Shown here piece after piece: positions 1-21,172 of a stretch of 21,366 nt of DNA. Every line of letters begins with the position of its first letter. Position 1 is the first letter of the stretch. This stretch comes from a virus. The stretch lies in IMG/VR virus record IMGVR_UViG_3300045135_000526, positions 1 to 21,366 of that record, one strand, 5' to 3'. The notes under the pieces were generated by a model, which worked only from the letters and a program-made list of their open reading frames with translations, was not told the origin of the DNA and ran no database searches. Both the position numbers and the translations under genes were made by a program.

Positions 1-2346
1 AGGAATTGTAAATCCAAACTCACCGTTGTACGCTAGTAGTGAACGTGGTTGGAATACAATATCATTTACGCCCATAGGATTCCAGAACTGTTCACCACCA
101 TTAGGCAATTTCTCTACGTAGTATGCATCATAGCTAATGTTAGAGATAGTACCAGCAGTTTGAGTAAGATCGAAGATTTGACCATTCTCTTGATATACAT
201 GATTCTCAGAAGTGTAGTCGCCACCTGCAAGATAAGCAGACGATAGATCGAGGTTGATCATGTCAAACTCAGAGTTAAGAACATCAGGAGTTGGTAGATA
301 CTCATTAGCAGGACCAATCAATACGTTCTGAGATGAGATAAAGAACTTAGAGCCGTAGACTGTTAGACCAGAACCAACGTTGTTGATCAAGTTATCTGAT
401 ACGATACCTTTATCGGTGTTAGTAACGTCAACTGCTAGACCAAAGTTTTCGAATCTATTAGAAGTAATTGTTGTCTTCTCGCCACCATAAGCGTATAATG
501 GAGAGTATGTTTCTCTATCAGAAACACCACTATTAAGAACTTCTGCATTAGTTACACGCAAGTCAACTGGTCTGTCTGCGTAGATACCTCCGCCGATTAC
601 ATTACGAATACGTACTTTATCGATAAGTGGACCGTCTGGGGAAAGACCTAGATCGATTGCATAGTTACGAGAAGAGTCTGTGCTATCTGGGAACAAGAAC
701 TGGTTAAGTGCATTACCGTCAAAGTCAACACCAACAATAGAAATGTTAGATGCACCAGATGCAGTTGCTACTTGAACCATGTTAGCAGATGATACACCTG
801 TCTCTGCGCCAGACCAAGGTAGTTTAACAATCTTAGTAATGTAAGATGTGCCAGTAATACCGAAGTTATTTGGGACAGTCAATGCACCAGATACATAAGT
901 CTTAGCGTTAAGTACAATAGACTTCTTATCTACAGATGCGTTTTGAGTAATTGCTTGGCGAATCTTCTGTGTATCGTTGTGACAGATTGTAACGTCTTCG
1001 TCTGATACGTATACACTATCACTTTCTGAAAGATACAAGTACTTGCTTGAGCCAATGATATTTGTAGACTCAATTACTTTATCTACCCAGCCACGTAGAG
1101 CAGTTGTAGGCGCAACGTGAGGGAAGTGAATAACATCAGTAGGATATGTATTGTCTTCTTCTACTTTACCAGTCCAAGGTGCCCAGTCAAAGTTGTAGTA
1201 GTCAATCCACTGACCATCTGCTACTTCTTTAGGACCAAGTACAGCAGTTAGAACGAATGCGTCATTTGTCTCAGGTGTTCTTCTGTAGATAGCTAGACCG
1301 CTACCTGCGTTAACGCCAGTGAATGAAAGACGAATAAAGTTGTCTGTGCTGAATGCTTGATATACATTATCAACTACGAACTGACCAGCTTCTGCGTCAT
1401 ATAGAGATTCTGGTGTAGCGATAATAACATCTTTCTGCGAACGAGCAGGTGAGATTTGACCATTCGTGTAGTCGAACTCACAAATCTTGTATGAGAATGT
1501 TGCTTGGTGACCAGACTCAGTTGATGAGTTTGCGAAACCAACTTTAGCAATAGTTAATGCAGAGTTAACAGGTCGAGCAGATGCGCTAGTACCACCAAGT
1601 AGACCATTCTCTGTGTCTGCACCGTAAATACGAATTACTTGACCAGCACTAAAGTTATCAAATACTTCAGTATCAGTGATACGCATGATACGACCTTGTG
1701 TATCTTGTGCTGTCAAAGATGCGTCTGTAAAACGAGCCGCTACATTGATAAGCGAGTCACGAACGTTACCATCATCGAATGTAGATGTAAATGAGTTGTA
1801 GTAGTCAGCAAAGTTAGCGTCAAAGAATGCTTCTACACGATCATTAGTAAAGTAAAGAGGACCTACTAGATTGCCACCATCATCTATTTGAGTATTCTCT
1901 TGTACGTTGTACGTAGAGATGTAAGTAGGAGTAGGATTACCAGAACCTTCATTGTCTAGATATACAAGACGAGGTGGAATTTGCGTAGTATCTAGTTTAA
2001 CAAATCCAGAGTTGTTTGTCAAGTCATCTAGATTAGATGGAATGTCTGGTGTATTTGTGAAGTTATCATAATCTAGAAAGTAATCTCCAGTACGGTAAGC
2101 ACCATTAACATACAACTGAGAAGCGTACAATGAGTTTGTGTCGTTACCAGAGTTATATGTGTTAAGTGCTGAGATAACTTCTGAAGCGTTAGCTTCGAAA
2201 GCTGAGGTACTCAATAGAGTATCGGTTAGGTCACCGAACGAAATTCGTTTTGTAGTACCTTCACTGATATCCTCAAGAATAATGAGGTCAGTTGTAGCTA
2301 CCTGTGTACCATCGATTAAATTGAGTTCTGTAATTGCAATTGCCAT
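1..2346 (-). CDS. Large tail fibre or tail spike protein with parallel beta-helix (partial, C-terminus cut)
   Basis: A frame starting at an ATG at 2346 stays open for 782 codons to the window edge, so the C-terminus is missing. The first 50 residues (MAIAITELNLIDG, then a TTDLIILEDISEGTTKRISF stretch) resemble the short adaptor region at the start of many T4-like fibre proteins. Residues about 450-690 look like a right-handed parallel beta-helix: an IRQAI...SIVLNAKTYVSG entry typical of pectate-lyase-like folds, then short strands rich in Asn, Gly, Val and Ile such as ITSNRFENFG and IVSDNLINNVGSGLTVYG. Such folds in phage tails usually bind or cleave host surface polysaccharide; no catalytic residues could be assigned. 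AAAGG sits 10 nt upstream of the ATG and an AATAAATA late-promoter-like core lies 35 nt upstream. Being a structural protein is well supported; adhesin or depolymerase function is inference. Confidence 0.8.
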   Translation of the reverse strand, partial: MAIAITELNLIDGTQVATTDLIILEDISEGTTKRISFGDLTDTLLSTSAFEANASEVISALNTYNSGNDTNSLYASQLYVNGAYRTGDYFLDYDNFTNTPDIPSNLDDLTNNSGFVKLDTTQIPPRLVYLDNEGSGNPTPTYISTYNVQENTQIDDGGNLVGPLYFTNDRVEAFFDANFADYYNSFTSTFDDGNVRDSLINVAARFTDASLTAQDTQGRIMRITDTEVFDNFSAGQVIRIYGADTENGLLGGTSASARPVNSALTIAKVGFANSSTESGHQATFSYKICEFDYTNGQISPARSQKDVIIATPESLYDAEAGQFVVDNVYQAFSTDNFIRLSFTGVNAGSGLAIYRRTPETNDAFVLTAVLGPKEVADGQWIDYYNFDWAPWTGKVEEDNTYPTDVIHFPHVAPTTALRGWVDKVIESTNIIGSSKYLYLSESDSVYVSDEDVTICHNDTQKIRQAITQNASVDKKSIVLNAKTYVSGALTVPNNFGITGTSYITKIVKLPWSGAETGVSSANMVQVATASGASNISIVGVDFDGNALNQFLFPDSTDSSRNYAIDLGLSPDGPLIDKVRIRNVIGGGIYADRPVDLRVTNAEVLNSGVSDRETYSPLYAYGGEKTTITSNRFENFGLAVDVTNTDKGIVSDNLINNVGSGLTVYGSKFFISSQNVLIGPANEYLPTPDVLNSEFDMINLDLSSAYLAGGDYTSENHVYQENGQIFDLTQTAGTISNISYDAYYVEKLPNGGEQFWNPMGVNDIVFQPRSLLAYNGEFGFTIP

Positions 2347-4372: not shown

Positions 4373-7300
4373 TTAGGTCACCGCAATCGCTCTGTAATCC
4401 GCTACATGTGTAAACAGATTAATGTCTGGTGTTAGACCATTCTGAGCGTATGCTTCTAGCTCAGAGTCAGTCATATGTCGCATAACAATCTTGATCTGGA
4501 ATGTACTGTATTCTTGACCAAATGAGGTTTCATCTAGATTGTATTCAAACTCACGGTAATCTCTTACGTTATGTGTAGCAGAGAATGTAGTTGGGTTGAC
4601 TAAATCTAGTTGAGTCCAATCAGTGTATGTCTCAATATCAGTAGGTAGAATGAAACGAGCATATACGTCTAGCATTGTACCAGTTGGGCGATATGCACCA
4701 ACTACAACTTTTAGACCTTCTGCGTACATTCTATCAGACAGTGAAGCTGGTTTAGAAACGTATGCTGAAGTTGTTTCTTCTACATCTGTAATATCATATT
4801 GATAAACGTTCAAGATAGATAGATCGTCATCGATGATAGGAGACACAGCAGTGTAGCCACCGTTAGTCATGTGTACACGAATCGCAAAGTCTTCTTCTAC
4901 TGACTGACCAGGATCTACAATGTTTGATGTACTTGGAACGTAACGAGCATTGCCCATCAAGTACACGTTGTCATTCTGAGAAATGCTCTTGTCTACATTC
5001 GAACCTTGCATTAGCTCCATAGTTGTACCAGTGTTAGTGGTGTTGAACTTATGAATCATTGGTTGGAAGAACGAAACAGGAATGTCCATCACATCAACAA
5101 CATCTGCTTCTGCGCCTGAACGAGCACCACGAATCTTCTCAGTACCATCACCGATGATACGGTAGATAGCTCTTGCAGAAGAACCTTTGATGTGTAGTTC
5201 GTCTGGCTTACCACCGTTGAAGTATGTTACTTCACCAGCAACTGCAAACGTAATGTTGATGTTGCCTTGAGATGTAGTATCAAACGGAACAGGTGTCTCT
5301 AGCACAAGTGTCGTTACACCACTAATTTCTACAGGTGCTTCTTCGATACGAGTAACATATACATCAGTGCCGCTTGTAGTTACTTTTTCTAGTACAACAT
5401 AGTCGTTCTGAGAGAATGCTGTTGCGCTGTTGATTGTAATAGTACGACTTGTAACGTCATCAGGATCAATACTTGCAACTGTATATTGACCAGCATTTGA
5501 TTTCTTAACGTAAGCCATCTCACCATCGATGAATCCACGAATACAGTTAGCAAGCTGAAGAAATTCTGGCTTGTTAGGAACAAGATCAACGTAACCAACT
5601 TGATCAGAGAATACAAGTGACTTAGCAGTGAACTTGATATCTTCGTCTTGGTAAGATTTCCATGCACGGTTGTTAGTAGATGTGAATAGAACACCATCGC
5701 CCCAGTCCTGAGTAACAGGTACACCAGCGGCATCTGACTTATCAGTTTCACCAACTTTAGAAGTCCAGATCAAGTACTCTGGTGAGTTAGCGTCTGGAAT
5801 AACAACGAATGCGTATTCACGCTCTACATCTAGTTTGATTGGATTATCAAACGAAACTGTAGTAGCCGCTGAACCATCGTTAGATACTACTACTTGATCA
5901 GCAGTTAGATACTTACGACCAAATGGTAGAATGTTAGCAGATGGGTAGCCATTCTGCACTTCACGAATCTCTACTGTAATACCAGCATTATCGTCTTTCT
6001 TCTGGAAGTATAGATCAATATCTTTTAGGAACATTGATTTAGCATCAGAAGTCATACCTTGACGCACGTAGAATGTTTGTGCAATAGGGTCAGGGCGTGG
6101 AATGCGTCTACGTGAAGTCTCACGGAAGCGAGTGTTATCTTGTGAAGGTGCTTTCTCAATATCAATCTTGAAATCTGGAGAACGTGTAGTTACATCTAGA
6201 GCCGCACGTGAGATACCTAGACGGTATGCACGATATACAGCCGCACCGTAAGATGTTGAAGCACTTTCAATATCTTCGTATGTAGGAACGTCTGTCACTT
6301 CAAGTGTGTTTTCGCCAACGTAGAATGTGCCTTCTGGAATAGTAAACACAGCCGCTAGTACGCCGTTTTCATCTGCACGTACAGCTTGACCAGCCGCAGT
6401 AGTTGAACCAGCCGAACCTGAAGCTGTAAACACGTCTTCACTGTTTAGTGTTTCAATACCAGAAGCATCTGTACGATACACTACTTGACCTGGTGTTACG
6501 TGTTCGTTAATATCTACACCATCTGCAAAGTAGAAGTAGTGGCGAGTATTAGGACGTAGACCAGTTACAAGAATCTTGATTTCACGTGACTTAACGAATG
6601 GCTTAAAGCTAACATCAGTTACGAAGTCACCAACTGCTTCTTGTGTAGAGTTAGTAGTATCGTAGCCAATCGATAGTGTTTGATAGTCTTGTCTCCAAGT
6701 ATCATTTACACCAGAGATGATGAAGCCACCAGATACTCTATCAGCCGCATCTACAGTGTCAACGAGATATTCTTCACCTACTGCATCTGTGCGAGTCATT
6801 GGGTAGAACTCTTGAATGTTCTCTAGCAGATCAATCATAGGAGTAGCAATATCGATGTTGATATTAACATCTGGATTACGTACCGTATCATAGTCAGATA
6901 CGAAGTCTGGCGTAATGATCACACTACCTTTGTAGTTGTAATAGTTTGATACACACAAACGAGTCGTAGTAGCGTATGGTTGCTGAATGAAAGTCTGTCT
7001 AGTACCAGTCTCGCCTAGAGTCGTGATCTTAGGGAAGTCAGTGATATTGCTTGATGTGCTTGCTCTTAAAGTCAAGTCAAGTGGGAATGTTTTAAGAGCA
7101 GGTTGACCAATCTTGTAAGAAGGATCGATAGCCATCTTGAAGTCTGGGTTAGTAACATCAGAAGTTGCTAGTGATTCAAAAGTATCAACTAGGAAACCAT
7201 TCTTAAATCTGTTAACACCAGAAGCATCTGGAATGAACATGCTATCAGCCGCTTTCTCAAGTGCATTCAATGCTACTTGTTCAGTCAAGCGTTTGATCTG

Positions 7301-9817
7301 AGTATCGAACTTAGTGATCTCTTTCATTGTGTAGTTCTTAACTGTCTTCTGTGTAATCTTCACAGGGTTAGAACCAGTTAGATCAAGATCGCCACCAGGT
7401 ACATAAACTTCACCAAGCTGGAACACATTGTTCAACTTAGGAATGCTTGGTTTCTCAGATGGCGAGCCTTTTACAATGTCAAACTGACCACGTGAGTCAA
7501 TTACAACAGAGTCGATACGAGGTAGATATACATCGTGTGTAGCAAGAATTGTGCTGTTAGTTGCAAGAACTTTGTCCATCGCAGGGAAAGACTTAACAAT
7601 TGACGATCCAACTGACTGTGCGTTACCAGAACTCAATGCGTACTCAACGACTGGGTTATGATAAGGTCTGAAGTCGATTGCATTCAATGGATTGATTACA
7701 GTACCATCTTTAGCGTAGTGCTTCTTAATAACTTTCTTATCAACACCAGCATATGAGTCGATAGTTAAGTAGCCGTTACCAACTGTAGATGTTCTACGTA
7801 GTGCTTTGAACTTAATCAATAGTGAAGAAGAACCAGATACGCTACGTAGAGATTGACCACGCTTCAACTGAATGTACGATAGATCGTAGTATGAGTCTTT
7901 AGCATTAGTAACAATCTTAAAGCGTGAAGTCACATCTTCGCCATTGCCATCGTCATCGATAACTTGTAGAAGTTCAACACCGTTTGGAATACCTAGATTC
8001 GCTTTACCACCAGTGTAAGTAGAACGAACGTATACATCACGCTCATCTAGAGTATCAGCATCAATACCAGATACTAGTCTATCGTAGTAAACAAATGCAG
8101 GAGTACCAGCACCTAGATCACTTAGAGTAACGTCATAGTTAGTACCGTAAGTACCAGCAGTCTGATTGATATTAGAAGGTAGAATAAGTTCGTTAACACT
8201 GTTGATAACGAAGATATTATTTGGGTTAACTGGTTGACCGTTTACTGTTGCTTCGATAACAAACTGATTGCTTGCTGTACCAACAACTTCACGTACACGC
8301 TCTACGTACTTAACGTCAGATACGCTACGCATTGCATTTGCGCCAGTTGGGAAAATTAGTTTAGCACTATTGACAGAACGAAGAGGAGATGTTATGATTG
8401 TATCACCAATCTTGTACACATCGTCTGTTTCATAACCAGCATTCTTCTCTACTGCATAAACGTATACACGACCTTCTGTAGTACCATTTACAGATGGACC
8501 AGAAGTTACTGAGCGAATAGAACACGTGCCGATAACATCGTTACCTAGATTGTACATGTTGTAACGAGTACCATCAAGCAAGAATGTATTAATTGCTGTA
8601 GACGTTGGGTTACCTTGACCATCAGTTCCTGGCGCTTCCCAGTTGAACTCATAGAACTGACCGTAGTTAGCACCAGTACCCATGTTCTCACGTGTAACGT
8701 AATCGCTTGTAGATGTAGGTGCAATGTTTAACCACTTCTTACCAGTCAACTCAACACCGTAGCCTTTTACGTAGGCTTTGCCTGGGTTGACTACTGCGTA
8801 AGTGCCATCAACGTCTTGATCAAGAGATAGCTCCATGCCACGTACAACGTAGTCGCCAGACTCTTCGTATGTACGTCTTGCTAGTTCTTTAGCAATAGAG
8901 TTGAACTGTGTAACGTCACGAATAGCAATTGCTTCACCACGCTCAAAGCGAATAAGAGTGAAGAAGTCGTCTGGCTCAGAACCTGCTTCATAAGCCGCAA
9001 GTACTGGTTGCAGTCTTAGACGATCTGCGCCAGGTGCATTATCGTTATTGTAACCTTGAGCATTGTCTAGTAGAGTTTGATCTTCGTTAGATGTAACAAT
9101 AGTTTCTTTAATGTCAAAGCCAATTGCGATATCACGAGGTACATCACTGTACTTCTCGATTATGATCAACTGACTTTCAGCAAAGATAAAGTGACCTTTC
9201 TGATATAGAATACCTTCGTCAACAGATGCACCGAACGAGCGACCAGCGTGATTTTCGACCTCAGCAACCACAGCATCGACTTGTTCACTACGATCAATGT
9301 CAACTATTTTTAGAACTTCACCTGGAAGGAATTCTTTGATATCTTCTGACTGCGCATTCTGATTCGTATTCAAGTAATTGATGAAGAATGTCTTCAGATC
9401 AGGATCACGTGTTTGGAAACCGTTAGCAGTTGTAAGAATCTTTGCACGTAGACCTGTTGTCTGACCTTCTAAGAAGTATTCTGTAGTCTCTTCTTGATCA
9501 GTTACAGCATTATAAACTGTAACAGGATTGTAGATAGTAGGATCAGGTAGTGCGGCTGTATCTTTAACTTTTACGAAGAAAATGTCAGAACGTTGGTTAG
9601 GGTTGATACCACTAATGATAGTACCTTCCTGATAAACGTTCGAGCCAAAGCGTTCAATCTGCTCTTGCAAGATTGTCTGCATCTGCGTAAGTTCACGTGC
9701 TTGTACTGCACGTGCTGGTCTAAAGAGAATTCTATTATACTGTTTGTACTGAGGGTTCTCAGGATCATAGAAGTTCTCAAAATATGGATCAATGTTGAGG
9801 TCTTTATTAATGCCCAT
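4373..9817 (-). CDS. Giant DUF4815-type tail or baseplate-periphery protein
   Basis: At 1814 residues this is the largest protein in the window. The N-terminus (about 11-75) has the signature I associate with DUF4815 proteins of cyanophage-like myoviruses: FYDPENPQYKQYNRILFRP, then AVQARELTQMQTILQEQIERFG and YQEGTIISG. Around residues 1070-1090 is GLRPNTRHYFYFADG, and around 1240-1340 a PIAQTFYVRQG start leads a beta-rich, jelly-roll-like region. The C-terminus (FQIKIVMRH ... DYRAIAVT) also matches the usual ending of these proteins. A purine-rich AAAGAGA precedes the ATG. T4 has no direct equivalent; the gene lies where T4-like phages encode outer wedge and fibre-attachment proteins (gp9-gp12), so I infer a peripheral baseplate or fibre-anchor function. 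Family assignment is from memory of the motif and not from a search. Confidence 0.85.
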   Translation of the reverse strand: MGINKDLNIDPYFENFYDPENPQYKQYNRILFRPARAVQARELTQMQTILQEQIERFGSNVYQEGTIISGINPNQRSDIFFVKVKDTAALPDPTIYNPVTVYNAVTDQEETTEYFLEGQTTGLRAKILTTANGFQTRDPDLKTFFINYLNTNQNAQSEDIKEFLPGEVLKIVDIDRSEQVDAVVAEVENHAGRSFGASVDEGILYQKGHFIFAESQLIIIEKYSDVPRDIAIGFDIKETIVTSNEDQTLLDNAQGYNNDNAPGADRLRLQPVLAAYEAGSEPDDFFTLIRFERGEAIAIRDVTQFNSIAKELARRTYEESGDYVVRGMELSLDQDVDGTYAVVNPGKAYVKGYGVELTGKKWLNIAPTSTSDYVTRENMGTGANYGQFYEFNWEAPGTDGQGNPTSTAINTFLLDGTRYNMYNLGNDVIGTCSIRSVTSGPSVNGTTEGRVYVYAVEKNAGYETDDVYKIGDTIITSPLRSVNSAKLIFPTGANAMRSVSDVKYVERVREVVGTASNQFVIEATVNGQPVNPNNIFVINSVNELILPSNINQTAGTYGTNYDVTLSDLGAGTPAFVYYDRLVSGIDADTLDERDVYVRSTYTGGKANLGIPNGVELLQVIDDDGNGEDVTSRFKIVTNAKDSYYDLSYIQLKRGQSLRSVSGSSSLLIKFKALRRTSTVGNGYLTIDSYAGVDKKVIKKHYAKDGTVINPLNAIDFRPYHNPVVEYALSSGNAQSVGSSIVKSFPAMDKVLATNSTILATHDVYLPRIDSVVIDSRGQFDIVKGSPSEKPSIPKLNNVFQLGEVYVPGGDLDLTGSNPVKITQKTVKNYTMKEITKFDTQIKRLTEQVALNALEKAADSMFIPDASGVNRFKNGFLVDTFESLATSDVTNPDFKMAIDPSYKIGQPALKTFPLDLTLRASTSSNITDFPKITTLGETGTRQTFIQQPYATTTRLCVSNYYNYKGSVIITPDFVSDYDTVRNPDVNINIDIATPMIDLLENIQEFYPMTRTDAVGEEYLVDTVDAADRVSGGFIISGVNDTWRQDYQTLSIGYDTTNSTQEAVGDFVTDVSFKPFVKSREIKILVTGLRPNTRHYFYFADGVDINEHVTPGQVVYRTDASGIETLNSEDVFTASGSAGSTTAAGQAVRADENGVLAAVFTIPEGTFYVGENTLEVTDVPTYEDIESASTSYGAAVYRAYRLGISRAALDVTTRSPDFKIDIEKAPSQDNTRFRETSRRRIPRPDPIAQTFYVRQGMTSDAKSMFLKDIDLYFQKKDDNAGITVEIREVQNGYPSANILPFGRKYLTADQVVVSNDGSAATTVSFDNPIKLDVEREYAFVVIPDANSPEYLIWTSKVGETDKSDAAGVPVTQDWGDGVLFTSTNNRAWKSYQDEDIKFTAKSLVFSDQVGYVDLVPNKPEFLQLANCIRGFIDGEMAYVKKSNAGQYTVASIDPDDVTSRTITINSATAFSQNDYVVLEKVTTSGTDVYVTRIEEAPVEISGVTTLVLETPVPFDTTSQGNINITFAVAGEVTYFNGGKPDELHIKGSSARAIYRIIGDGTEKIRGARSGAEADVVDVMDIPVSFFQPMIHKFNTTNTGTTMELMQGSNVDKSISQNDNVYLMGNARYVPSTSNIVDPGQSVEEDFAIRVHMTNGGYTAVSPIIDDDLSILNVYQYDITDVEETTSAYVSKPASLSDRMYAEGLKVVVGAYRPTGTMLDVYARFILPTDIETYTDWTQLDLVNPTTFSATHNVRDYREFEYNLDETSFGQEYSTFQIKIVMRHMTDSELEAYAQNGLTPDINLFTHVADYRAIAVT

Positions 9818-9833
9818 CTATTTGTCTCTTTTC

Positions 9834-11612
9834 TTAGAAGTCGAATACGAATTTAATCTTTTCACGTCTACCAGGAATGCGTTGAATCGCATCGAAGTCT
9901 ACGTAATGCAAAAGATCACCGCTGTAGTCTGTGTAAAGTCCAAGATCACTTTCACTAACTGTATTTATGTCGTAATCATTAGAAACAATTGATGTAAGAG
10001 TTTTTTTGATCTTGACAGAACCAGCTTGGAATGTGTCAGCCCAGTCACCAATGTAGTCAACTAGATATAGCGTTGTCTCATCATTAATCGAATCGTATAC
10101 CATTTCGTGAATCTTAGCGTGAATCTCTTCACCATCTATAGTCTGAGTGATATAGTAGTTTGTGTAGTCAGTTGTAAGCGTTGTTAGATTACCATCAATA
10201 TGTACAGTCATTCTATTATCAAAAGAAGTAGGCTGAACATCACCTCTAAAAGAAGGACTCTTAACTAGACCAACACGTGTGTACGTATTGCTATCTGGAA
10301 TTTCGTTTAGCGAATCCGAGAAGATGTTTGTGATAACAGCTAGTTTTGACATGTACAATTCTGATACTGGATCAGCACCATGACCACCACGTGAAGATAC
10401 GATAGTACGTAGAACTGTTAAATCTGATTTATCTTGCATAGCAGGCGGCATCAGAAGTTTAGACGTTGCGTATTTGTACTGTGTACCTTTCTCTACAAAT
10501 TCAATATCTTGAATTGTGCCGTTGTCATCTAATACTGCATATGCGATTGCACGTGTACCAGAAGTAGCAGAAATTTTTACTTTAGGTACAACATAACATA
10601 CAGTTGACTTCTCATAGTTGATGTTGAAGTCTGATTCGTCATTTGTAATGTACACAAAGAATCTTGTTTCTGTAGCACCAGCAGTAGCAGGCGCATCAGA
10701 TGATATGATATCATAGATAGTACCTTCGCTAGGGAAACGAACGTACATATTTGTGTAAGCATCTTTAGTGTTCTTTGGAATTGGACCGCTTGTGCGTAGC
10801 TCAACTTCCCAGTTGTAGATACCGTTACCTTGTGACATTAGCGATACTTGCTGTACAGTCAATTCACCTAGGTTGTATTCTGATAGTAGACCCCCTTCTG
10901 TCTTCTCTACAACAATATCAGAAATACTCTCTTCTGTTGTATCGATAACATTTTGATCTTTGAAGTAAGGCAGTGATACTACAGTTGAGTATGGTTGATA
11001 CTCAGAAGGTGGTACAGTGAACATGTATTTCCACACGTAACCGTCAGATGTAGTGACTTCGTAGTTAGACTCTAGATCAGTTGTACTAGGTTGAACTGTA
11101 GAAGCCGCACCGTTGTTATTACGTAGACATTTAAATACTTTGTATGAGCCTTCGTTGATAACGCCATCTAGAACAGTCACATACATGTTCAGTGTAGAAA
11201 TATCTGCGTTATCATCAAACGAGTCATACTTTGTTCCAGAAGCCCAGTTGTTGATATCGAACATATAACGAATATCAGATTGAGTCACTTTGCGACCAAA
11301 GATAACTCTGCGTTGAAACTCACGCTTCTGGAATTGAGTATTAGTGATAGTTTCGCCTTTTGTAATAGACGACCCCATGACATAGTATGTGCTATCTGGC
11401 TGAGACGCATTCATTACGTCTAGCATTGTATTAGAAGCAAATGTTTTTAGAGTGGCTTCATCATCATTATCGATAGTGATACCACCAGTGTTAAGCCAGT
11501 CTGTTAGCTCTGCATTGAATTCAGAAACAACACTAGCATTACCTTCAGTAAATGATCTGAAGAGTTCGTTTGTTGTCTGTACTCTAAAGTTTTCTGTTAT
11601 GATTTTAGCCAT
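9834..11612 (-). CDS. 8: Baseplate wedge protein gp8-like (enlarged)
   Basis: The protein is 592 residues, compared with 334 for T4 gp8. Several gp8 landmarks appear in the right order: YYVMGSS (76-82, T4 FITFGRS), RRVIFGRKVT (101-110), GSYKVFKCL (155-163, T4 GWLVYRCL), the diagnostic DGYVWKYMFTVPPSEY (190-205, T4 DGYVWEYLFEIPPD), and a C-terminal REKIKFVFDF resembling the T4 ending EEINILFTF. The extra length lies mainly between about 210 and 560 and is beta-rich. gp8 is a wedge subunit that bridges gp7/gp10 and the inner disk in the T4 baseplate. The gene follows the gp7-position gene by an 11-nt gap, consistent with wedge assembly genes being co-transcribed. A run of seven A residues near the 3' end is in frame and gives no sign of frameshifting. 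Confidence 0.85.
   Translation of the reverse strand: MAKIITENFRVQTTNELFRSFTEGNASVVSEFNAELTDWLNTGGITIDNDDEATLKTFASNTMLDVMNASQPDSTYYVMGSSITKGETITNTQFQKREFQRRVIFGRKVTQSDIRYMFDINNWASGTKYDSFDDNADISTLNMYVTVLDGVINEGSYKVFKCLRNNNGAASTVQPSTTDLESNYEVTTSDGYVWKYMFTVPPSEYQPYSTVVSLPYFKDQNVIDTTEESISDIVVEKTEGGLLSEYNLGELTVQQVSLMSQGNGIYNWEVELRTSGPIPKNTKDAYTNMYVRFPSEGTIYDIISSDAPATAGATETRFFVYITNDESDFNINYEKSTVCYVVPKVKISATSGTRAIAYAVLDDNGTIQDIEFVEKGTQYKYATSKLLMPPAMQDKSDLTVLRTIVSSRGGHGADPVSELYMSKLAVITNIFSDSLNEIPDSNTYTRVGLVKSPSFRGDVQPTSFDNRMTVHIDGNLTTLTTDYTNYYITQTIDGEEIHAKIHEMVYDSINDETTLYLVDYIGDWADTFQAGSVKIKKTLTSIVSNDYDINTVSESDLGLYTDYSGDLLHYVDFDAIQRIPGRREKIKFVFDF
9962..9969 (-). promoter_or_regulatory. Candidate late promoter core CATAAATA near the end of the gp8-like gene
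   Basis: Minus-strand CATAAATA has one mismatch to TATAAATA. It lies inside the gp8-like coding sequence, 144 nt before the ATG of the DUF4815-type gene. It could give that very long gene its own transcript, but the distance and coding location make a chance match equally likely. Confidence 0.25.
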
Positions 11613-13964: not shown

Positions 13965-15779
13965 TTACACCGTAGTCATGTTGATTCTAATGTCTTCATC
14001 ACGTACAACAAGGATGCGGTCTTTAGTAGAACTGATATCCTTCTTGACTGTGTTAGCATAGAATTTGATTGCGTTGCCATCGTAGTTGTCTACAATAAAG
14101 TTAGTAAGACGAACGATACCTGTGTTGTAGTCTACTGTACCAACACCTTTCTTGAACACACGTGGTGTTACAGTGTCAGCAGTGATTGCAATGATATTAC
14201 CTCGACCATCGTCTTGTAGTCTAACAAGTGAACCGCTTAATGTAAAGCTTGTTGTCGAAATACTTGGTTTGTATGCATCAAAACCTTCTACTTCGTTGAA
14301 GCCGTAAGGCACAACAAGTTCAGCAGAGAAGTCGAATGATGGGTTTGCTAGATCACCAAGAATAGGTTTGTATTCAATGATTGGTCGAGCAAAGATATCA
14401 GTTGATACAACAGAAACGTCTGTAGTGTCGATCAAGTTAGATAGACGTGATTGACGTAGCGTGAAGTTAAACTTGTTAAGCGTTGTATCGTTGTAGTTAT
14501 TGATTGCGTTGCGAACCAATGCTTCAAGTGTAGATGCATTCTTAGAAGTGATCTTAGGATTGTACACTGTACCGATTTCAAGATCAACGTACATAAACTT
14601 AGCTTGCAAGAATACAGGCTCAATAGTAAGAGGAGTCTTAGTACGAATGTACTCATCAAACTTAGCAATGTCTGTAGCTGAAGCACCGTCTGCATCGTAC
14701 ACGTCAACAGAGATGATTACTTTACCGTACTGTGGTGGATCGATTTCGTCACCACCGTAAACAGAGATAGTCTGAATCGATGGGAACTGATTCATCAATA
14801 GTACTTCATAATCTTTCTTAGTCACAGCACGTTCTTGTACTTGAATAGACTTAGGTGCAAAGAACTTGATTTCGTCTAGCGACTCACGATCAGAACCTTG
14901 AGATGCATTGTTCACACCGTTGTTAGTGATTGAAGCAGAGTAACCACCAATGTTAGATGTAGCAGTGAAGTTACCAGCACCGTTTGCTTCTGCACCTTTA
15001 GTTACACGATATTCAATTTCGATTACGTTACCGTTCATTGGTTGCTTACCGAAACGATCACGACCAAAGTCAATCTTGTATAGATTGTCAAAGTGTGAGT
15101 CGATATAGAATACTGGATCAGCAGGCTCTACACCAAAGATAGTAGAGGAGTATTTAAAGTCTGTTGAGTTAGCACCTTCTGTAGCTGTATCATATACAAC
15201 AACACGGATACTTTCTGTATCAACATTCTCATTATTTAAAATAAACTCTTGACTTTCTGTCCCGTTTACTGTATAATACTCTTTAACGATTTTCCCTTCA
15301 TATACTTTAAGGTCACTGATTACATAAGCACCGTTTGTATTAGGCTTAACGACTCTAGCTTCATCAGTGATAAATGTGTATGACTTAGTACCACACTGAG
15401 CAGTAAACTTAGTGTTACGAGGAATGTTAATGAATGCAGGTGACGTAGAAAGACCAGATGTAGATGATACATTAGTGTTGAACGTCAAAGCAAGAGTAGA
15501 GTTAGCACTTGTACGAGAGCGTACTGTGTAACCAAGTTCTTTAGCATGTGACATAGCATTCTCTCTCAACTGCGCTGAGTCGAGGAACATTTCTGAGAAA
15601 GCCATGTTATTGTAAAAGTTATTTTGGAACGTATTCTTCGCAAGAATGTCCAATAGAACATTCATGTTTGAGCCTTCGAAGTCGTAATCTTGGAATTGCT
15701 CTTGTCCCTTTAAAAAGTTCTTCAGATTTTCTTTAATCTGAAAAAAGTCTAATTCTGTGAATGGTGCTTGATTTGCCAT
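13965..15779 (-). CDS. 6: Baseplate wedge protein gp6-like (P2 J family)
   Basis: The 604-residue protein begins ANQAPFTELDFFQIKENLKN and continues with FEGSNMNVLLDILAKNTFQN (about 35-54) and SEMFLDSAQLRENAMSHAKE (63-82), the classic gp6 opening in which each wedge subunit commits to the ring. The central FFAPKSIQVQERAVTKKDYE stretch (about 310-330) is the other strong gp6/Baseplate_J landmark, where T4 and P2 J-type proteins share the A(V)TxxDY pattern. T4 gp6 is 660 residues, so the length fits. gp6 dimers with gp7 form the wedge core and the inner iris that opens on sheath contraction. Its ATG shares one base with the gp25 stop (TAATG), and AAGG lies upstream, so gp25 and gp6 are likely translationally coupled. 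Confidence 0.93.
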   Translation of the reverse strand: MANQAPFTELDFFQIKENLKNFLKGQEQFQDYDFEGSNMNVLLDILAKNTFQNNFYNNMAFSEMFLDSAQLRENAMSHAKELGYTVRSRTSANSTLALTFNTNVSSTSGLSTSPAFINIPRNTKFTAQCGTKSYTFITDEARVVKPNTNGAYVISDLKVYEGKIVKEYYTVNGTESQEFILNNENVDTESIRVVVYDTATEGANSTDFKYSSTIFGVEPADPVFYIDSHFDNLYKIDFGRDRFGKQPMNGNVIEIEYRVTKGAEANGAGNFTATSNIGGYSASITNNGVNNASQGSDRESLDEIKFFAPKSIQVQERAVTKKDYEVLLMNQFPSIQTISVYGGDEIDPPQYGKVIISVDVYDADGASATDIAKFDEYIRTKTPLTIEPVFLQAKFMYVDLEIGTVYNPKITSKNASTLEALVRNAINNYNDTTLNKFNFTLRQSRLSNLIDTTDVSVVSTDIFARPIIEYKPILGDLANPSFDFSAELVVPYGFNEVEGFDAYKPSISTTSFTLSGSLVRLQDDGRGNIIAITADTVTPRVFKKGVGTVDYNTGIVRLTNFIVDNYDGNAIKFYANTVKKDISSTKDRILVVRDEDIRINMTTV

Positions 15780-16189
15780 TATCGTACCCTTGCTAGAGTT
15801 GTGACTAACGTTATGTCTTCTTCACTATTTATGACGTTGAACACAACTACTACTGATATAGTATTTACATCGGGATTGGCTAGAATGTCCACACCAATCA
15901 AGTTTGCTCTAGGCTCATAGTTCTCAATAGTCTCACGCACCATCTGCTTTGCAATAACAACAGTGTCAGGTGTGAAATTTTCAAATAGTAACTGTCTCAG
16001 GTCACTACCTAGAAGTGGTTGAAACGGGCGTTCGCCTCTGTCAGTCAACAATAGATTTCTAATAGATTGCTTAACCGCTTCTTCGTCTGTATTACGGGCG
16101 AGATCAAGCGACACAGGATTCTGGAATAGATCCATGTGAAAATCTGCATATAAGCTTTTCTTACCCGTAAGCGGTGTTCTGATAGCCAT
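15779..16189 (-). CDS. 25: Baseplate wedge protein gp25
   Basis: The 136-residue protein has the typical gp25/TssE/P2 W features: a short N-terminus (MAIRTPLTGKKSLYADF), a DEEAVKQSIRNLLLTDRGER helix (35-54), and the conserved RGERPFQPLLGSDLRQLLFE block (51-70), which corresponds to the conserved E-P/R-containing loop of the family. T4 gp25 is 132 residues. In the T4 baseplate gp25 binds gp6 and gp53 and seeds the first sheath ring, so the neighbouring gp6 fits. The start is well supported: AAGGA lies upstream and a perfect TATAAATA late promoter ends 18 nt before the ATG, giving a short leader if transcription begins a few bases after the box. A gap of 32 nt separates it from the preceding M15 peptidase gene, one of the larger gaps in the operon. 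Confidence 0.95.
   Translation of the reverse strand: MAIRTPLTGKKSLYADFHMDLFQNPVSLDLARNTDEEAVKQSIRNLLLTDRGERPFQPLLGSDLRQLLFENFTPDTVVIAKQMVRETIENYEPRANLIGVDILANPDVNTISVVVVFNVINSEEDITLVTTLARVR
15826..15833 (-). promoter_or_regulatory. Candidate late promoter core CATAAATA before gp6
   Basis: Minus-strand CATAAATA, one mismatch from TATAAATA, lies 46 nt before the gp6 ATG inside the 3' end of gp25. The distance would suit a short leader, but the site is also coding, so chance is possible. Confidence 0.35.
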
Positions 16190-16207
16190 CTCTTTTTCCT
16201 TTTATTG

Positions 16208-16215
16208 TATTTATA
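16208..16215 (-). promoter_or_regulatory. T4-type late promoter TATAAATA for gp25
   Basis: The minus strand reads TATAAATA exactly in the 32-nt gap between the M15 peptidase gene and gp25. It is followed by CAATAAAAGGAAAAAGAG and the gp25 ATG. In T4, this box is read by RNA polymerase carrying gp55 with the gp33 co-activator and the gp45 clamp, with transcription starting several bases downstream. That would leave a leader of about a dozen nt holding the AAGGA ribosome site. Those regulators are not in this window, so use of the box is inferred from sequence and position. Confidence 0.75.
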
Positions 16216-16221
16216 AGAGCG

Positions 16222-17859
16222 TTAAGATAACGACTCGCCTCTTCTGAATCCGTCTGTCAAGTGCATTGCAATGTAGTTGTCGAGCACGTGACCTCTGTTC
16301 CACGAGCGTCTAGTACCTAAGTCGATATGCATAAAGTTACTACCTGGATAGTATGCAATACCGCTGAAGCCTTCTTGTGAAGCAATTCGAATAAAGTTTC
16401 TTTTATCTTCATCAGAGAATCCTGCCATACTCACGTCAAGTGCTAGACCTGTCATGTGCATAGAACGACTTGCTCCACCTATATTTCTATTGTATTCTGG
16501 CGAACGATATGCTGAGTTAATAGTCAACACTTTGCCCATTCTACGAGCAACAGGTACTAACTTCTGCCACACTTCGTTTTTAATCATGCGCCAGCCTGCG
16601 TCATCAGATGCATCAGAAACAGATTTACCCATATTCTTAACTGAAGATGCGAACGTAAAGTATCCATCCATTCCGCTATCTGATAGACCCATAAGTGCAG
16701 AGTTTTCTGCTTCTGTTAGATCACCAGATGCTACGTACTCTTCTGGCACTGGAGCAGGACCTGGTAAATCACCATCTCTTTGTCTAGCGCCACAACTTGC
16801 ACCACCAGAGATTCTTGCTCTAGCCGCTTTGATACCATCATCACTGATACGTACTGCGCCAGCGTTTACTGCGTCTTGCTTACGCACATCAGAAATCTTA
16901 TTTACAAGTTGCTCTTCTAGTGCTACGCCAGTAACAAAAGTTTTAAGAGCATCAACAGGTCCTTTCATAAACGACTGCATCATTTCTGTGAACTGACAGA
17001 AGCGGAAAAGCATAAGAGCGATTGCTTGTGGAGTCAACTCTTTAAACTGATCTGAAGCTTTCTGAACGAACTCGCCAATCTTGTCTTTTAAAGAACCATC
17101 TGAGTTTAAGAAGTCTTTGATGTTGTCAACCATCTTCTTGATCTTAGCCATGATCTTCTTAGCGCCAGCTTTGATATTGTTAACAATAGACTTCGCTGAA
17201 TCGACAAGACCTTTGACTTGTGCTTCAAGAGTTGATTTCAAACTATCGACTAGTTTACTCAGAGTTGCTTTTAGGATATTAAGCGGGCCCAATAAATCTG
17301 CTAAACTGAAGTTCAATAGACTATCAAGTAATGCGCCACCAAACTTCAATGCTTCAAGTGCGCCAAGTAATTTACCAAACGGATTAGCGATAGCCGCACA
17401 GAATCCACCTGAGATACTATTTGCCATGTTCTCGCTATAGTAGAACTCTAGCTGTGCAAAGATAGTACTAACATCAGATGGAACGTTATATGCAGGAATA
17501 CGCTTATCTTCAGTGTTTGATAGCACTGGGTTATTATTAAGATACGTATTAAAGTCAGTCATCGTAGTGTTTACGTTATCGATATTCAGACCAGTTTCAT
17601 TTAGAAAGTCTGCTATCTCTGCGTAAAGAATTGGCGACTGATTCTTACGACTTGTCAATAAAGGATACTGCTTTGTATCAACACGCTTTAGCGCATTATT
17701 AAGTGCTAATGATGTGCTTAGTAGTTTACCTTGATCGTATGCATCAGCAGGGTTCTCTTGTGAATTGACAAGATCAAACATGTCGAGATTAGGTGCTTCC
17801 CCTCTCTCGACAATAGCATCTGCATATCTACTTGCAATTGTTATTGGTTTACATGTCAT
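16222..17859 (-). CDS. Baseplate-hub-associated protein with C-terminal M15-type peptidoglycan peptidase
   Basis: The 545-residue protein ends in a domain (about 425-520) with the M15_3/VanY-like signature: INSAYRSPEYNR (448-459), IGGASRSMHMTGLALDV (460-476) and FMHIDLG (509-515). Expected zinc ligands are H468, D475 (H-x6-D) and H511, and R452 is the conserved Arg of YRSP. Such enzymes cut peptide bonds in peptidoglycan; carboxypeptidase versus endopeptidase cannot be decided here. Residues 150-330 are a glycine- and leucine-rich segment followed by Lys-rich amphipathic helices (LVDSLKSTLEAQVKGLVDSA, then AKKIMAKIKKMVDNIKDFLN). A short Pro/Gly-rich linker (about 352-375) precedes the peptidase. 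The N-terminal 150 residues are unrecognised. The ATG overlaps the needle gene by four bases (ATGA), so the peptidase is probably made together with the needle. Its role as the wall-opening enzyme of the tail is inference. Confidence 0.88.
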   Translation of the reverse strand: MTCKPITIASRYADAIVERGEAPNLDMFDLVNSQENPADAYDQGKLLSTSLALNNALKRVDTKQYPLLTSRKNQSPILYAEIADFLNETGLNIDNVNTTMTDFNTYLNNNPVLSNTEDKRIPAYNVPSDVSTIFAQLEFYYSENMANSISGGFCAAIANPFGKLLGALEALKFGGALLDSLLNFSLADLLGPLNILKATLSKLVDSLKSTLEAQVKGLVDSAKSIVNNIKAGAKKIMAKIKKMVDNIKDFLNSDGSLKDKIGEFVQKASDQFKELTPQAIALMLFRFCQFTEMMQSFMKGPVDALKTFVTGVALEEQLVNKISDVRKQDAVNAGAVRISDDGIKAARARISGGASCGARQRDGDLPGPAPVPEEYVASGDLTEAENSALMGLSDSGMDGYFTFASSVKNMGKSVSDASDDAGWRMIKNEVWQKLVPVARRMGKVLTINSAYRSPEYNRNIGGASRSMHMTGLALDVSMAGFSDEDKRNFIRIASQEGFSGIAYYPGSNFMHIDLGTRRSWNRGHVLDNYIAMHLTDGFRRGESLS

Positions 17860-18857
17860 TCGCTATCGTCCTGTATTCTATCAGAGATTGCTTGTGGTTG
17901 TGGTTGTACCATAGCAATACCAGTCTCACCATCAACAGATGGTCTACGTGCTTCTGGAGTCTTCAACTCTGGCATCTGAGCATTCTCAGGTTGCTGTGCT
18001 TGTTCTGGGCTTGCGCTACCTTCACCAAGACGTACTTCGCTACCTTCAAGATATGCTACGCCAGATGATTCCATTGACCAAGTTCCATCTATATAGAAGT
18101 CAGCATTACCACCAGTCTTGATGTGCATAGTGTCACCAGACTGTAGACGTACTTCGCTATCACCATATAGGTTAGCAACACTCATAGAGCTTGCAATCAA
18201 ATCACTCTTAGCGGCTAGACTCATACGACCAGCTACGGCAGTTGCACGAATATTCTCGGCAGCCGCCATATCAATATCTGTTACCGACCCTTCAATAGAT
18301 ACTTTTGCACCACGTAGTTCGAGTGCTTCTGCGGCATTAATGGTTGCTTTACCACGCACTTCTAAGTTATAATTCTCACATTCAATGTTTACGTCACCTT
18401 GAACATAAACATGCTTTGATCCGTTTTCAACACGAACGTTCCAGTCACCACCAACGTTTGTGTTAGTGTCACCGTCTGAGCGTTGATAATGTACGCCTTC
18501 TGTTGTGTTGTATGTGTCACCTTGCGACTTAATTAATACTGTGCCATGCTGATCGATCTGTACAACTGTACCAGAGTTGTGTGTGATCAGCATATAGCCT
18601 TCGCCATCTGAACCTTCATCGTTTACTACGATTGAGTTGCCACCATTCTTTGCTTGAAAGACAACAGTGTTCATACTACGAGATGGTGCAACTACGTCTG
18701 GTTCACTCCACGTTCTATCATTTGGTCCTTGGATATCAGTTCTACGAGAAGCACCATGTACAACAGTTGCAGTACGATTCGCTTGTTCACCACTCACCCA
18801 AGGTGACGTAGGAACGTTTCCGTAGTTGTCGATATAATCTTTAGTAGGTCTACCCAT
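17856..18857 (-). CDS. 5: Baseplate central spike needle, gp5C-like beta-helix (stand-alone)
   Basis: The protein of 333 residues corresponds to the C-terminal part of T4 gp5. Residues 62-125 (NTVVFQAKNGGNSIVVNDEG, then MLITHNSGTVVQIDQHG) look like the linker between enzyme and needle. Residues about 130-280 are a regular run of eight-residue steps rich in V, G, N and D (NVGGDWNVRVENGSKHVYVQ, GDVNIE, LEVRGKATINA, SIEGSV), the hallmark of the trimeric triple-stranded beta-helix that forms the membrane-piercing needle. The final 50 residues are Pro, Gln and Glu rich and probably disordered. I chose the ATG at 18857 because GGAG lies seven nt upstream; a longer frame from a TTG at 18872 would overlap the previous gene by 13 bases and put that site inside the coding sequence. 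There is no lysozyme domain. Confidence 0.88.
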   Translation of the reverse strand: MGRPTKDYIDNYGNVPTSPWVSGEQANRTATVVHGASRRTDIQGPNDRTWSEPDVVAPSRSMNTVVFQAKNGGNSIVVNDEGSDGEGYMLITHNSGTVVQIDQHGTVLIKSQGDTYNTTEGVHYQRSDGDTNTNVGGDWNVRVENGSKHVYVQGDVNIECENYNLEVRGKATINAAEALELRGAKVSIEGSVTDIDMAAAENIRATAVAGRMSLAAKSDLIASSMSVANLYGDSEVRLQSGDTMHIKTGGNADFYIDGTWSMESSGVAYLEGSEVRLGEGSASPEQAQQPENAQMPELKTPEARRPSVDGETGIAMVQPQPQAISDRIQDDSE

Positions 18858-18859
18858 TG

Positions 18860-19219
18860 TTATGCTCCACAAGAGTTGTCAGCAAAACCGAAGTCATCGA
18901 TGTTCTGCCCGTAGAGTGTTCCAAGAACAAATGGATTCTGACAATCACGACCGTCAGAGAAGAAGCCGAATACCCAGTCACCTTCATCTGGTACGGCGTG
19001 CATCTTACCCATTGTACCGTTAATGATAAAAGCCCAAGGCAAGTCTTGATCTTCTACGTAATTCTTACTTTCTTTATCGTTCAATAATTCGTTTGGTGCA
19101 TTTGTTGGATGTATACCAAAAGCACGTACTTTTACTCGACCGCTGTTAGTAGGATCGTCTTTACAAACAACTTCACCAATGAACCAATATGGTTGCATAC
19201 CACTTTCAGGTTTAAACAT
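18860..19219 (-). CDS. 5: Baseplate hub gp5 N-terminal OB-fold protein (stand-alone)
   Basis: This 119-residue protein matches the N-terminal OB-fold of gp5: WFIGEVVCKDDPTNSGRVKV (12-31), FGIHP (34-38), LPWAFIING (60-68) and EGDWVFGFFSDGRDCQNPFV (79-98) followed by LGTLYG. In T4 this domain (about 130 residues) sits below the gp27 trimer and holds the needle in register. Here the reading frame stops after FADNSCGA with no lysozyme and no needle; the needle starts in a different frame two bases later. The ATG shares a base with the stop of the gp27-like gene (TAATG) and GGAGAT precedes it. The separation is a real stop, not a frame lost at the window edge, but whether a sequencing error made it cannot be excluded from one sequence; needle and OB-fold are both complete in themselves. 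Confidence 0.88.
   Translation of the reverse strand: MFKPESGMQPYWFIGEVVCKDDPTNSGRVKVRAFGIHPTNAPNELLNDKESKNYVEDQDLPWAFIINGTMGKMHAVPDEGDWVFGFFSDGRDCQNPFVLGTLYGQNIDDFGFADNSCGA
18865..18868 (-). promoter_or_regulatory. Ribosome binding site deciding the needle start
   Basis: Minus-strand GGAG within TGTGGAGCATAACAATG sits seven nt before the ATG at 18857. This supports the 333-residue form of the needle over the longer TTG-initiated frame. Confidence 0.7.
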
Positions 19220-20577
19220 TATACATCTCCTATCGGTCCTCTAGATACAACTAATTCTTGAATATATGTATCTTCATAAAATACGTTATTAACAGATTCG
19301 ATGATATATGTACCAGAACGTTCTACGTCAATATTAGCGTATGTAGAAAAGTATGGAAACTCTAGATCGATCAAGTCACCGACAAACAATCTATTAGAAC
19401 CATACACTTTGATATTCATACGAGTCATTTTGTAATCGTAGTAATGCGAGTTCTTATGATTATGGATTTGCCCATAATACGTTTTAGTTCTTAGACCATT
19501 CGCATTACTCATATCATCATCTGGATAATCTTTGATCACATAAGTTTCAGCCCAGTTGTTCAAGTGTGCGTCAATAAACTTATCTGTGTGACGCATATTG
19601 ATATCTGTGTTCTGACCTGGGTAGATATACTCGAAGTACTCTTCATTGTGTTTGTATTCGTATGCGTTTACACGTCTGTTAGTCACATCAACTTCGTTTA
19701 GCTTACGGTTGTACGCACCAAACTTGAGTGCATCAAGTGTGTCGAATGGTGACTGAAAAGCTAAATCAATGATCTGATTCATTTTAATGATTTCTGCTTG
19801 TGGTGTCGTGTCAGTTGCACCAGAAACATATTGATATTTCTTCTTAGCAGTACCTGCGTTAAGCTGTTCCATGTTGACGAAGTTGTAGCCGTTACGTGCT
19901 TCAAAGAAACGATAGTAGCTTGACGGATAGTTAATACTGTATGCTCTACGTGACATGAGATGCATAGCGGCTTCAGGTCGCATGTTAGGAATTACGATTT
20001 GCTGTTCACTTTCTGTTTCGTGAATAGTAATCTCTTTCTTTGTGCCTTGATCATTATCACGATAATAGTCTTCGAATAGCACATCTACTTGTTCGCTAAC
20101 AGGAATATAGCGTCTGCCAGATCGTGTACCATTTGCAATACAGCGAGACACCATGAAACGCTCAGACCAGAACTTACCCCAAGATACAAAATGAATAGTA
20201 TATCCAAGAACACTGTCATCAGACTTCTTAGGTGTTTGAATATCTGTCACGCTGAATAGAAACATCTCTTCTGTGCGCTCATCACCAAAGTAGTCACGAT
20301 ATGTGATTGTGATTCTTTCTTGACCACGTATAGGGTAGTTGTAGAATATACCCTCTGCGTCATATACCTTTGCTGATCCTGAGATGTGACCTTTCGTCAT
20401 AGACTCAGATAAAGACCATGTGTGAATAATCTTTTTAATGTCCACGGATTGGTTTTCAAACGTATTCTCATTCGCATCGAACCCAGCCGCTTCTCCAATC
20501 TCAGAATCAGAAATAACGGGTCTTAATTTAAACTCTAATAATGTATACGTACCAGCAGGTATAACTGAATCAGTCAT
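19219..20577 (-). CDS. Baseplate hub protein, gp27-like candidate
   Basis: The 452-residue protein lies between gp53 and the gp5 OB-fold gene. T4 gp27 is 391 residues and forms the hub cylinder that holds gp5 and the tail tube. Supporting features are the beta-rich domain near residues 45-130 (IKKIIHTWSLSESMTKGHIS, then YRDYFGDERTEEMFLFSVTD) and the C-terminal region (384-452: MNIKVYGSNRLFVGDLIDLE, then GTYIIESVNNVFYEDTYIQE), which has the 'Gd...G..i..e' shape of phage hub proteins (gp27, Mu gp44, P2 D). The ATG overlaps the gp53 stop by eight bases, and a TAATG overlap couples it to the OB-fold gene. Order (hub protein then OB-fold then needle) supports gp27 equivalence strongly, but sequence similarity to T4 gp27 is weak, so the name is an inference. 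Confidence 0.75.
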   Translation of the reverse strand: MTDSVIPAGTYTLLEFKLRPVISDSEIGEAAGFDANENTFENQSVDIKKIIHTWSLSESMTKGHISGSAKVYDAEGIFYNYPIRGQERITITYRDYFGDERTEEMFLFSVTDIQTPKKSDDSVLGYTIHFVSWGKFWSERFMVSRCIANGTRSGRRYIPVSEQVDVLFEDYYRDNDQGTKKEITIHETESEQQIVIPNMRPEAAMHLMSRRAYSINYPSSYYRFFEARNGYNFVNMEQLNAGTAKKKYQYVSGATDTTPQAEIIKMNQIIDLAFQSPFDTLDALKFGAYNRKLNEVDVTNRRVNAYEYKHNEEYFEYIYPGQNTDINMRHTDKFIDAHLNNWAETYVIKDYPDDDMSNANGLRTKTYYGQIHNHKNSHYYDYKMTRMNIKVYGSNRLFVGDLIDLEFPYFSTYANIDVERSGTYIIESVNNVFYEDTYIQELVVSRGPIGDV

Positions 20578-21172
20578 TCATCAAACTCTCAAATTCTTTA
20601 GCAACTTGTTCAGCATATACGTCATTGATTAGCTGAATAACTCGCTTGTCTTCATTAGCTTCAACTTCTGCATCAAATACACGAACAGGTGTCCATCTAT
20701 CTTCACCAATTAAAGCGGCATCAAATTTAGAACCAAGAGCGTATGACTCTGGGCTCAACTTAATCTCTTCGTCACTGTCTAACGAGCGATAGAAAAGAAT
20801 ATTGTCATTACGTGTAGCATCTTGTGTCCAGTTAAGAACGTCTTGTGCGCTGTATGTTGTATTGCCAGTACTCTCTTCATATTCGTCTTTATACTTGTCT
20901 GCAATGTGTGCATACAGTTCTCTATCACGCATAGGCCAGTCTTTATACGGATCGATCATATTGTTTGCTAGATAGATCATCCAGACGTAATCCACTGTAC
21001 CATAATATAGATACGAGATTTCTTCTACAGTCTCGCCATCTTTAATTGTATACGGTAGATACACGTTAGGGTTCTGAGCAATCGTATTCAGAAACTTAGC
21101 ACGTTTCGTGATATCAACTAGAATCTCATTCGTGTGCTTTACTTTAGGAAAGTTAGTAAAATACTTAGGCAT
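20570..21172 (-). CDS. 53: Baseplate wedge protein gp53
   Basis: The protein of 200 residues matches the length of T4 gp53 (196). The diagnostic block is the LysM-like stretch at residues 39-82: LPYTIKDGETVEEISYLYYG, then TVDYVWMIYLANNMIDPYKD and WPM, where the D-G-E-T and WMIYLANN...WP positions are typical of gp53. gp53 joins neighbouring wedges through gp25 and gp6, and the LysM-like fold is a known feature of the family. Its ATG shares one base with the stop of the tail-tube cap gene (TAATG), with GGGAGAAG upstream. The start is therefore well supported. Downstream, its stop overlaps the hub gene by eight bases. Confidence 0.92.
   Translation of the reverse strand: MPKYFTNFPKVKHTNEILVDITKRAKFLNTIAQNPNVYLPYTIKDGETVEEISYLYYGTVDYVWMIYLANNMIDPYKDWPMRDRELYAHIADKYKDEYEESTGNTTYSAQDVLNWTQDATRNDNILFYRSLDSDEEIKLSPESYALGSKFDAALIGEDRWTPVRVFDAEVEANEDKRVIQLINDVYAEQVAKEFESLMND

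Follow-up and report, generated by a model that had tools for sequence, protein, structure and literature searches.

The DNA analyzed here, a virus record of 21,366 bases (hereafter the window) with a GC content of 40%, derives from an uncultured T4-like marine phage and carries a gp5 spike in two genes, followed by a gene for a peptidase of the M15 type. Did this peptidase take the place of a spike lysozyme, as an earlier, sequence-only reading of the locus had proposed, or is it an older companion of the spike? The results of our analysis favor the latter answer: familiar components are arranged in an uncommon way, as a gp5 spike variant that is split once, has an exchangeable enzyme slot and keeps a constant neighboring peptidase.

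The two gp5 genes and their surroundings

A baseplate cluster of the T4 type lies on the minus strand of the window, with the gene order gp53, gp27-like, OB, needle, M15 protein, gp25 and gp6 that is also kept in relatives. The gp53-like wedge gene (20570..21172; PF11246, E 1.5e-6; PHROG 232) is followed by a 452-residue gp27-like hub gene (19219..20577; PHROG 350, E 1.7e-45), a homologue of the phiM12 gene annotated as gp27 that lies directly upstream of the OB gene. At the other end, a gp25-like wedge gene (15779..16189; PF04965, E 2.6e-13) lies downstream of the peptidase gene and precedes the gp6-like wedge gene (13965..15779; PF21379, E 7e-17; PHROG 219, E 1.7e-149), all on the minus strand, with more wedge genes and fibre-like genes after gp6. 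Elsewhere in the window, a protein of 1814 residues contains DUF4815 (4373-9817, minus strand; PF16075, E 1.8e-53), and a 782-residue fibre-like gene without a Pfam match runs off the end of the record (1-2346, minus strand). There is no PAAR tip gene of the gp5.4 type between spike and gp25 (15779-19219), a difference from the OC, Aeromonas and cyanophage relatives. The gp27 homologue of one relative is broken over two frames (L165:4352-5130), by error or in reality.

The OB gene (18860..19219, minus strand) encodes 119 residues whose alignment profile matches residues 7-103 of T4 gp5 (1pdl) with E 1.6e-15, so that the N-terminal OB fold is present, and its match to the PHROG family of 'baseplate hub and tail lysozyme' is confined to the OB part. 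Judging from these matches, it is the equivalent of the N-terminal domain of T4 gp5, with no lytic domain attached. The adjacent gene (17856..18857, minus strand) encodes a needle of the triple beta-helix type with 333 residues, and its ATG start lies two bases after the OB stop TAA, with GGAG upstream; ribosome site, stop and start are all contained in the junction at 18855..18871 of the minus strand (TGTGGAGCATAACAATG). The needle protein matches positions 354-557 of PHROG 430 (E 8e-14), which form the C-terminal part of the PHROG gp5 profiles, as well as solved VgrG/gp5 spikes in profile searches (best E 6e-4), while its match to DUF2345 falls below the Pfam cut-off. These similarities identify the needle gene as the equivalent of T4 gp5C plus linker, a protein of beta-helix type.

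The T4 character of one polypeptide that is cut during maturation is not found in the window, where OB and needle are two genes in different frames, as they are in relatives. Also absent is the lysozyme domain between OB and needle, for which the 119-residue OB gene leaves no room; neither Pfam searches of the other large ORFs of the window, which found no lysozyme domain, nor family searches of the 21,366-base record, which found no PF00959 and no PF01464, disclosed one elsewhere. The coordinates and lengths of the two genes, the clean stop with a new ribosome site between them and the lack of a lysozyme in either agree with what the sequence-only reading had described, and no lysozyme-bearing gp5 occurs among the ORFs of the record, which is the part of the genome seen.

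Origin of the split

IMG/VR scans yielded many relatives of the locus. All close relatives (44-70% identity) keep OB and needle separate, with the break at the same linker and mostly with a TAATG stop-start overlap at the junction; none has one fused gp5, which confirms that the split noted earlier is a conserved property of these phages. Given that more distant relatives do have a fused gp5, a sequencing or assembly error could be imagined, but all the close relatives, coming from separate metagenomes, share the stop-start arrangement, and extending the OB frame past its end runs into a stop codon in no more than about 20 codons. Such an error is extremely improbable, and we have discarded it on the basis of the same break across relatives.

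A phylogenetic tree was built from gp53, gp27, gp25 and gp6, leaving out the trait genes themselves. All split loci group together in a single clade, which has a local support of 1.0 in the FastTree analysis with denser sampling, and parsimony explains the split by one change on the baseplate-gene tree; the support for this clade was weaker, 36%, with IQ-TREE on fewer loci. The outgroups of the split clade, phiM12 included, have one fused gp5. This topology indicates that the split arose once, from fused gp5 ancestors. In phiM12 the needle profile starts immediately behind the OB fold, and the break therefore lies in the linker between OB and needle. The corresponding region of T4 gp5 contains the lysozyme and the site of proteolysis, which is located between Ser351 and Ala352, on the needle side of the lysozyme (PMC3004832). 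Searches of the open-licence literature brought up no account of a gp5 encoded in two pieces or of an M15 peptidase at this location.

The helical-M15 protein and its neighbors

The needle gene overlaps the following gene by ATGA (17859-17856). This latter gene (16222..17859, minus strand) encodes a protein of 545 residues with helices at about 8-355, a linker and an M15_3 domain at about 396-525, the N-terminal side containing about 345 residues of helices. The match to PF08291 spans residues 427-513 with E 9e-19 and 68 bits, against a curated cut-off of 23.2, and the peptidase domain with its zinc-ligand triad (H468, D475 and H511) is located at 16321..16593 of the minus strand. The three residues are invariant, and their counterparts in the alignment with the zinc DD-peptidase of S. 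albus (1lbu) are H154, D161 and H197, the zinc ligands of that enzyme. The ATGA junction and the terminal M15_3 domain with its intact triad, both recorded in the sequence-only reading, were recovered.

The protein matches PHROG 25247 over residues 64-525 (E 4e-46), a match to the helical-M15 protein of phiM12 type that includes the helical part, and its position between gp5/needle and gp25 fits this assignment by synteny. In the AlphaFold model, the pLDDT is about 80-93 over most of the peptidase region (381-520) and the helices are predicted at moderate confidence. Foldseek and VIA-align assigned the expected DD-peptidase/hedgehog fold to the catalytic part and gave no clear fold match for the helical part, the similarities of which are at the level that the tool calls common. 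The helical part also shows weak tape-measure-like profile matches in PHROGs (E 1e-7 at best), which may be an effect of composition; in phiM12, it is another gene that carries a tape-measure-like label. A relationship of the helical part to the middle of cyanophage gp5, hinted at by PHROG 694 (E 9.5e-5), was dropped after profile-profile comparison returned a probability of 0.2. Among relatives, the M15 proteins of L055 (3811-6174), L053 and L041 have a low-complexity insert of Thr, Ser and Gly, of roughly 50-170 residues, after residue 110 or so, and L111 (6798-9200) has one frame of 801 residues that combines OB and needle with a C-terminal stretch of weak similarity to M15 (E 2e-3).

Across the lineage of phiM12 and the window, the helical-M15 gene lies between gp5 or needle and gp25 wherever the contig reaches, with the exception of the reshuffled L044. 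It follows a fused gp5 that has a lysozyme-like C-terminus in phiM12, PF00959 lysozyme in L063 and L066 (E 7e-17), an SLT domain in L083 and no recognized enzyme in L046, L048, L051, L055, L084, L085 and others; in a contig of 218 kb, the PF00959 lysozyme and M15 domains are about 1.3 kb apart. The gene is still present where the split OB gene carries Hydrolase_2/SleB (L015; PF07486, E 3e-8), SLT (L041; PF01464, E 1e-8) or an extra, putatively lytic domain (L016 and L022). The same slot of the OB gene carries M15 in L044 (PF08291, E 3.5e-16) and is empty in the window. The lytic assignment of the extra domain in L016 and L022 follows from a transglycosylase-like motif (SEG...GPYQ) and position alone, profile searches having returned no convincing solved structure and nothing in PHROGs; the structure prediction for the L022 OB gene has a mean pLDDT of 41.

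Under parsimony, the content of the OB slot has undergone at least five changes within the split clade, and at least six changes are needed to explain which gp5 or OB genes carry a glycosidase, recognizable or presumed, where an absent glycosidase signifies no Pfam match and divergent enzymes can escape detection. Such exchanges mark the tail of the OB gene as a swappable slot for wall enzymes. The presence of M15 alongside fused and split, glycosidase-bearing and glycosidase-free gp5 argues for independent variation of the split, the glycosidase and M15, with M15 as the constant. The helical-M15 gene is, judging from its distribution, older than the split, a constant neighbor that often stands beside sugar-cutting enzymes.

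These results bear directly on the proposal that the module was rebuilt, a peptidase replacing the glycosidase and the enzyme moving off the spike as gp5 split. The window indeed contains no recognizable glycosidase, and M15 adjoins the split spike; however, M15 predates the split, coexists with lysozyme, SLT or SleB (phiM12, L063, L083, L015 and L041) and is also found in many relatives with a fused, apparently glycosidase-free gp5, and we regard the proposal as unlikely. Nor do the split and the M15 gene always occur together, since the latter also follows fused gp5 in phiM12 and many uncultured phages, and the distribution rules out M15 as a replacement that arrived with the split. While evolutionary replacement has to be abandoned, a part of the idea may survive: in the window phage, the glycosidase having been lost, M15 is perhaps the one wall enzyme that the baseplate retains.

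Is the peptidase part of the puncturing device at all? In L044 the needle comes first, followed by a helical protein that lacks the peptidase and then by OB fused to an M15 domain (8971-11335), while in Ochrobactrum phage OC one gp5 chain comprises OB, M15_3, Phage_lysozyme2 and needle; M15 is linked to the OB spike because it is fused to OB in both phages, and OC lies far from the split clade holding L044 in both the IQ-TREE and the FastTree trees. The peptidase is probably, on this evidence, part of the device, and translational coupling, fixed neighborhood and conserved helical half would fit a hub-associated virion protein. Being on a separate chain, M15 could act elsewhere, for instance at lysis, and M15_3 domains are common in phage endolysins, none of which is seen among the window genes. 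That the protein acts late, as an endolysin or another lysis factor, instead of being a virion component nevertheless seems improbable in view of its fixed place between spike and gp25, the ATGA coupling to the needle, the long helical half that is conserved and the fusions, in L044 and OC, of this domain with OB. Even less probable is a mainly structural role, as a hub plug or helical scaffold whose peptidase either has phage proteins as its substrates or is inactive. The helical part does stand as its own gene in L044, and within a fused-gp5 group one or more of the M15 zinc ligands are lost in L089, L092, L093/L094 and L098, whose neighbors keep them. The loss in L089, L092, L093 and L098 suggests pseudo-peptidases kept for structure and, therefore, that an M15 domain can persist without being an enzyme; the window and most relatives, however, retain the complete triad.

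A split spike with an enzyme slot, compared with known systems

We consider it likely that the window encodes a puncturing device related to that of phiM12, with gp5 split once, an empty OB slot and an older M15 peptidase that travels with the hub. This explanation builds on the observed structure and order of the genes, their homologies, the tree, the exchange of domains and the intact metal ligands, while the virion location and activity of the helical-M15 protein and the assembly of the spike are inferred. According to the proposed mechanism, gp5 was broken once, at the gene level, in the linker between OB fold and beta-helix, and the two chains, translated in tandem, would assemble non-covalently on the gp27-like hub. 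The tail of the OB gene is an exchangeable slot for wall enzymes, empty in the window phage, and the helical-M15 protein would most likely travel with the hub and cut the peptide cross-links of peptidoglycan at entry. A bolder version, in which the OB part of a two-piece spike is a modular enzyme port, M15 is carried by the hub and entry in the window branch proceeds by peptidase only, free of glycosidase, is tentative and rather doubtful.

Because proteolysis severs the T4 chain in the very linker where the gene is broken here, the divided gene reproduces at the genetic level the mature gp5*/gp5C state. The split spike thereby offers a natural test of whether a covalent precursor is needed for spike assembly, and the relatives form a series (fused, split, OB-SleB, OB-SLT, OB-M15 and enzyme-free) with which to ask which wall chemistry phage entry requires. 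They also correct the tempting story of a neighboring peptidase that replaces the lysozyme.

As in T4 gp5/gp27, an OB fold and a beta-helix needle lie beside a gp27-like hub, but T4 has one gene with the lysozyme between OB and needle, whereas the window has two genes and no lysozyme. To our knowledge, T4 has no M15 gene beside gp5. T4 cuts its single gp5 chain in the linker that joins the lysozyme to the needle (PMC3004832). The phiM12 group of Sinorhizobium phages (Emdodecavirus: phiM12, phiM7, phiM19 and phiN3) shares the gene order of the window and has a homologous helical-M15 gene after gp5 (30% identity over 85%), but its gp5 is fused, with the lysozyme-like domain C-terminal, after the needle. 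OB, M15_3 and needle are combined in one spike in gp5 of Ochrobactrum phage vB_OspM_OC (phiOC_p064), which differs in being a single chain of 808 residues that includes Phage_lysozyme2. Anabaena phage A-1(L), in whose hub protein gp15 peptidase activity has been shown by assay (PMC10966104), provides an example of a hub with an active peptidase, as is predicted for the window; it differs in that the lysozyme, endoglucanase and peptidase domains are all inside the hub protein.

The cyanophages S-CREM2 and S-H34 resemble the window in having a separate needle-homologue gene directly after an OB-bearing gp5, as indicated by hhalign (probability 92, E 6.5e-7). These genes (L072:8643-9695 in S-H34 and L004:10388-11347 in S-CREM2) are annotated as hypothetical or 'baseplate wedge' but have the appearance of gp5 needles in genes of their own. 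The two cyanophages differ from the window in their OB gene of about 810-900 residues, in the lack of a helical-M15 gene and in a helical region that is not similar. The products of both the OB-bearing gp5 and the separate needle gene have been detected in virions of S-CREM2 (PMC10665884), and a two-piece spike is therefore workable.
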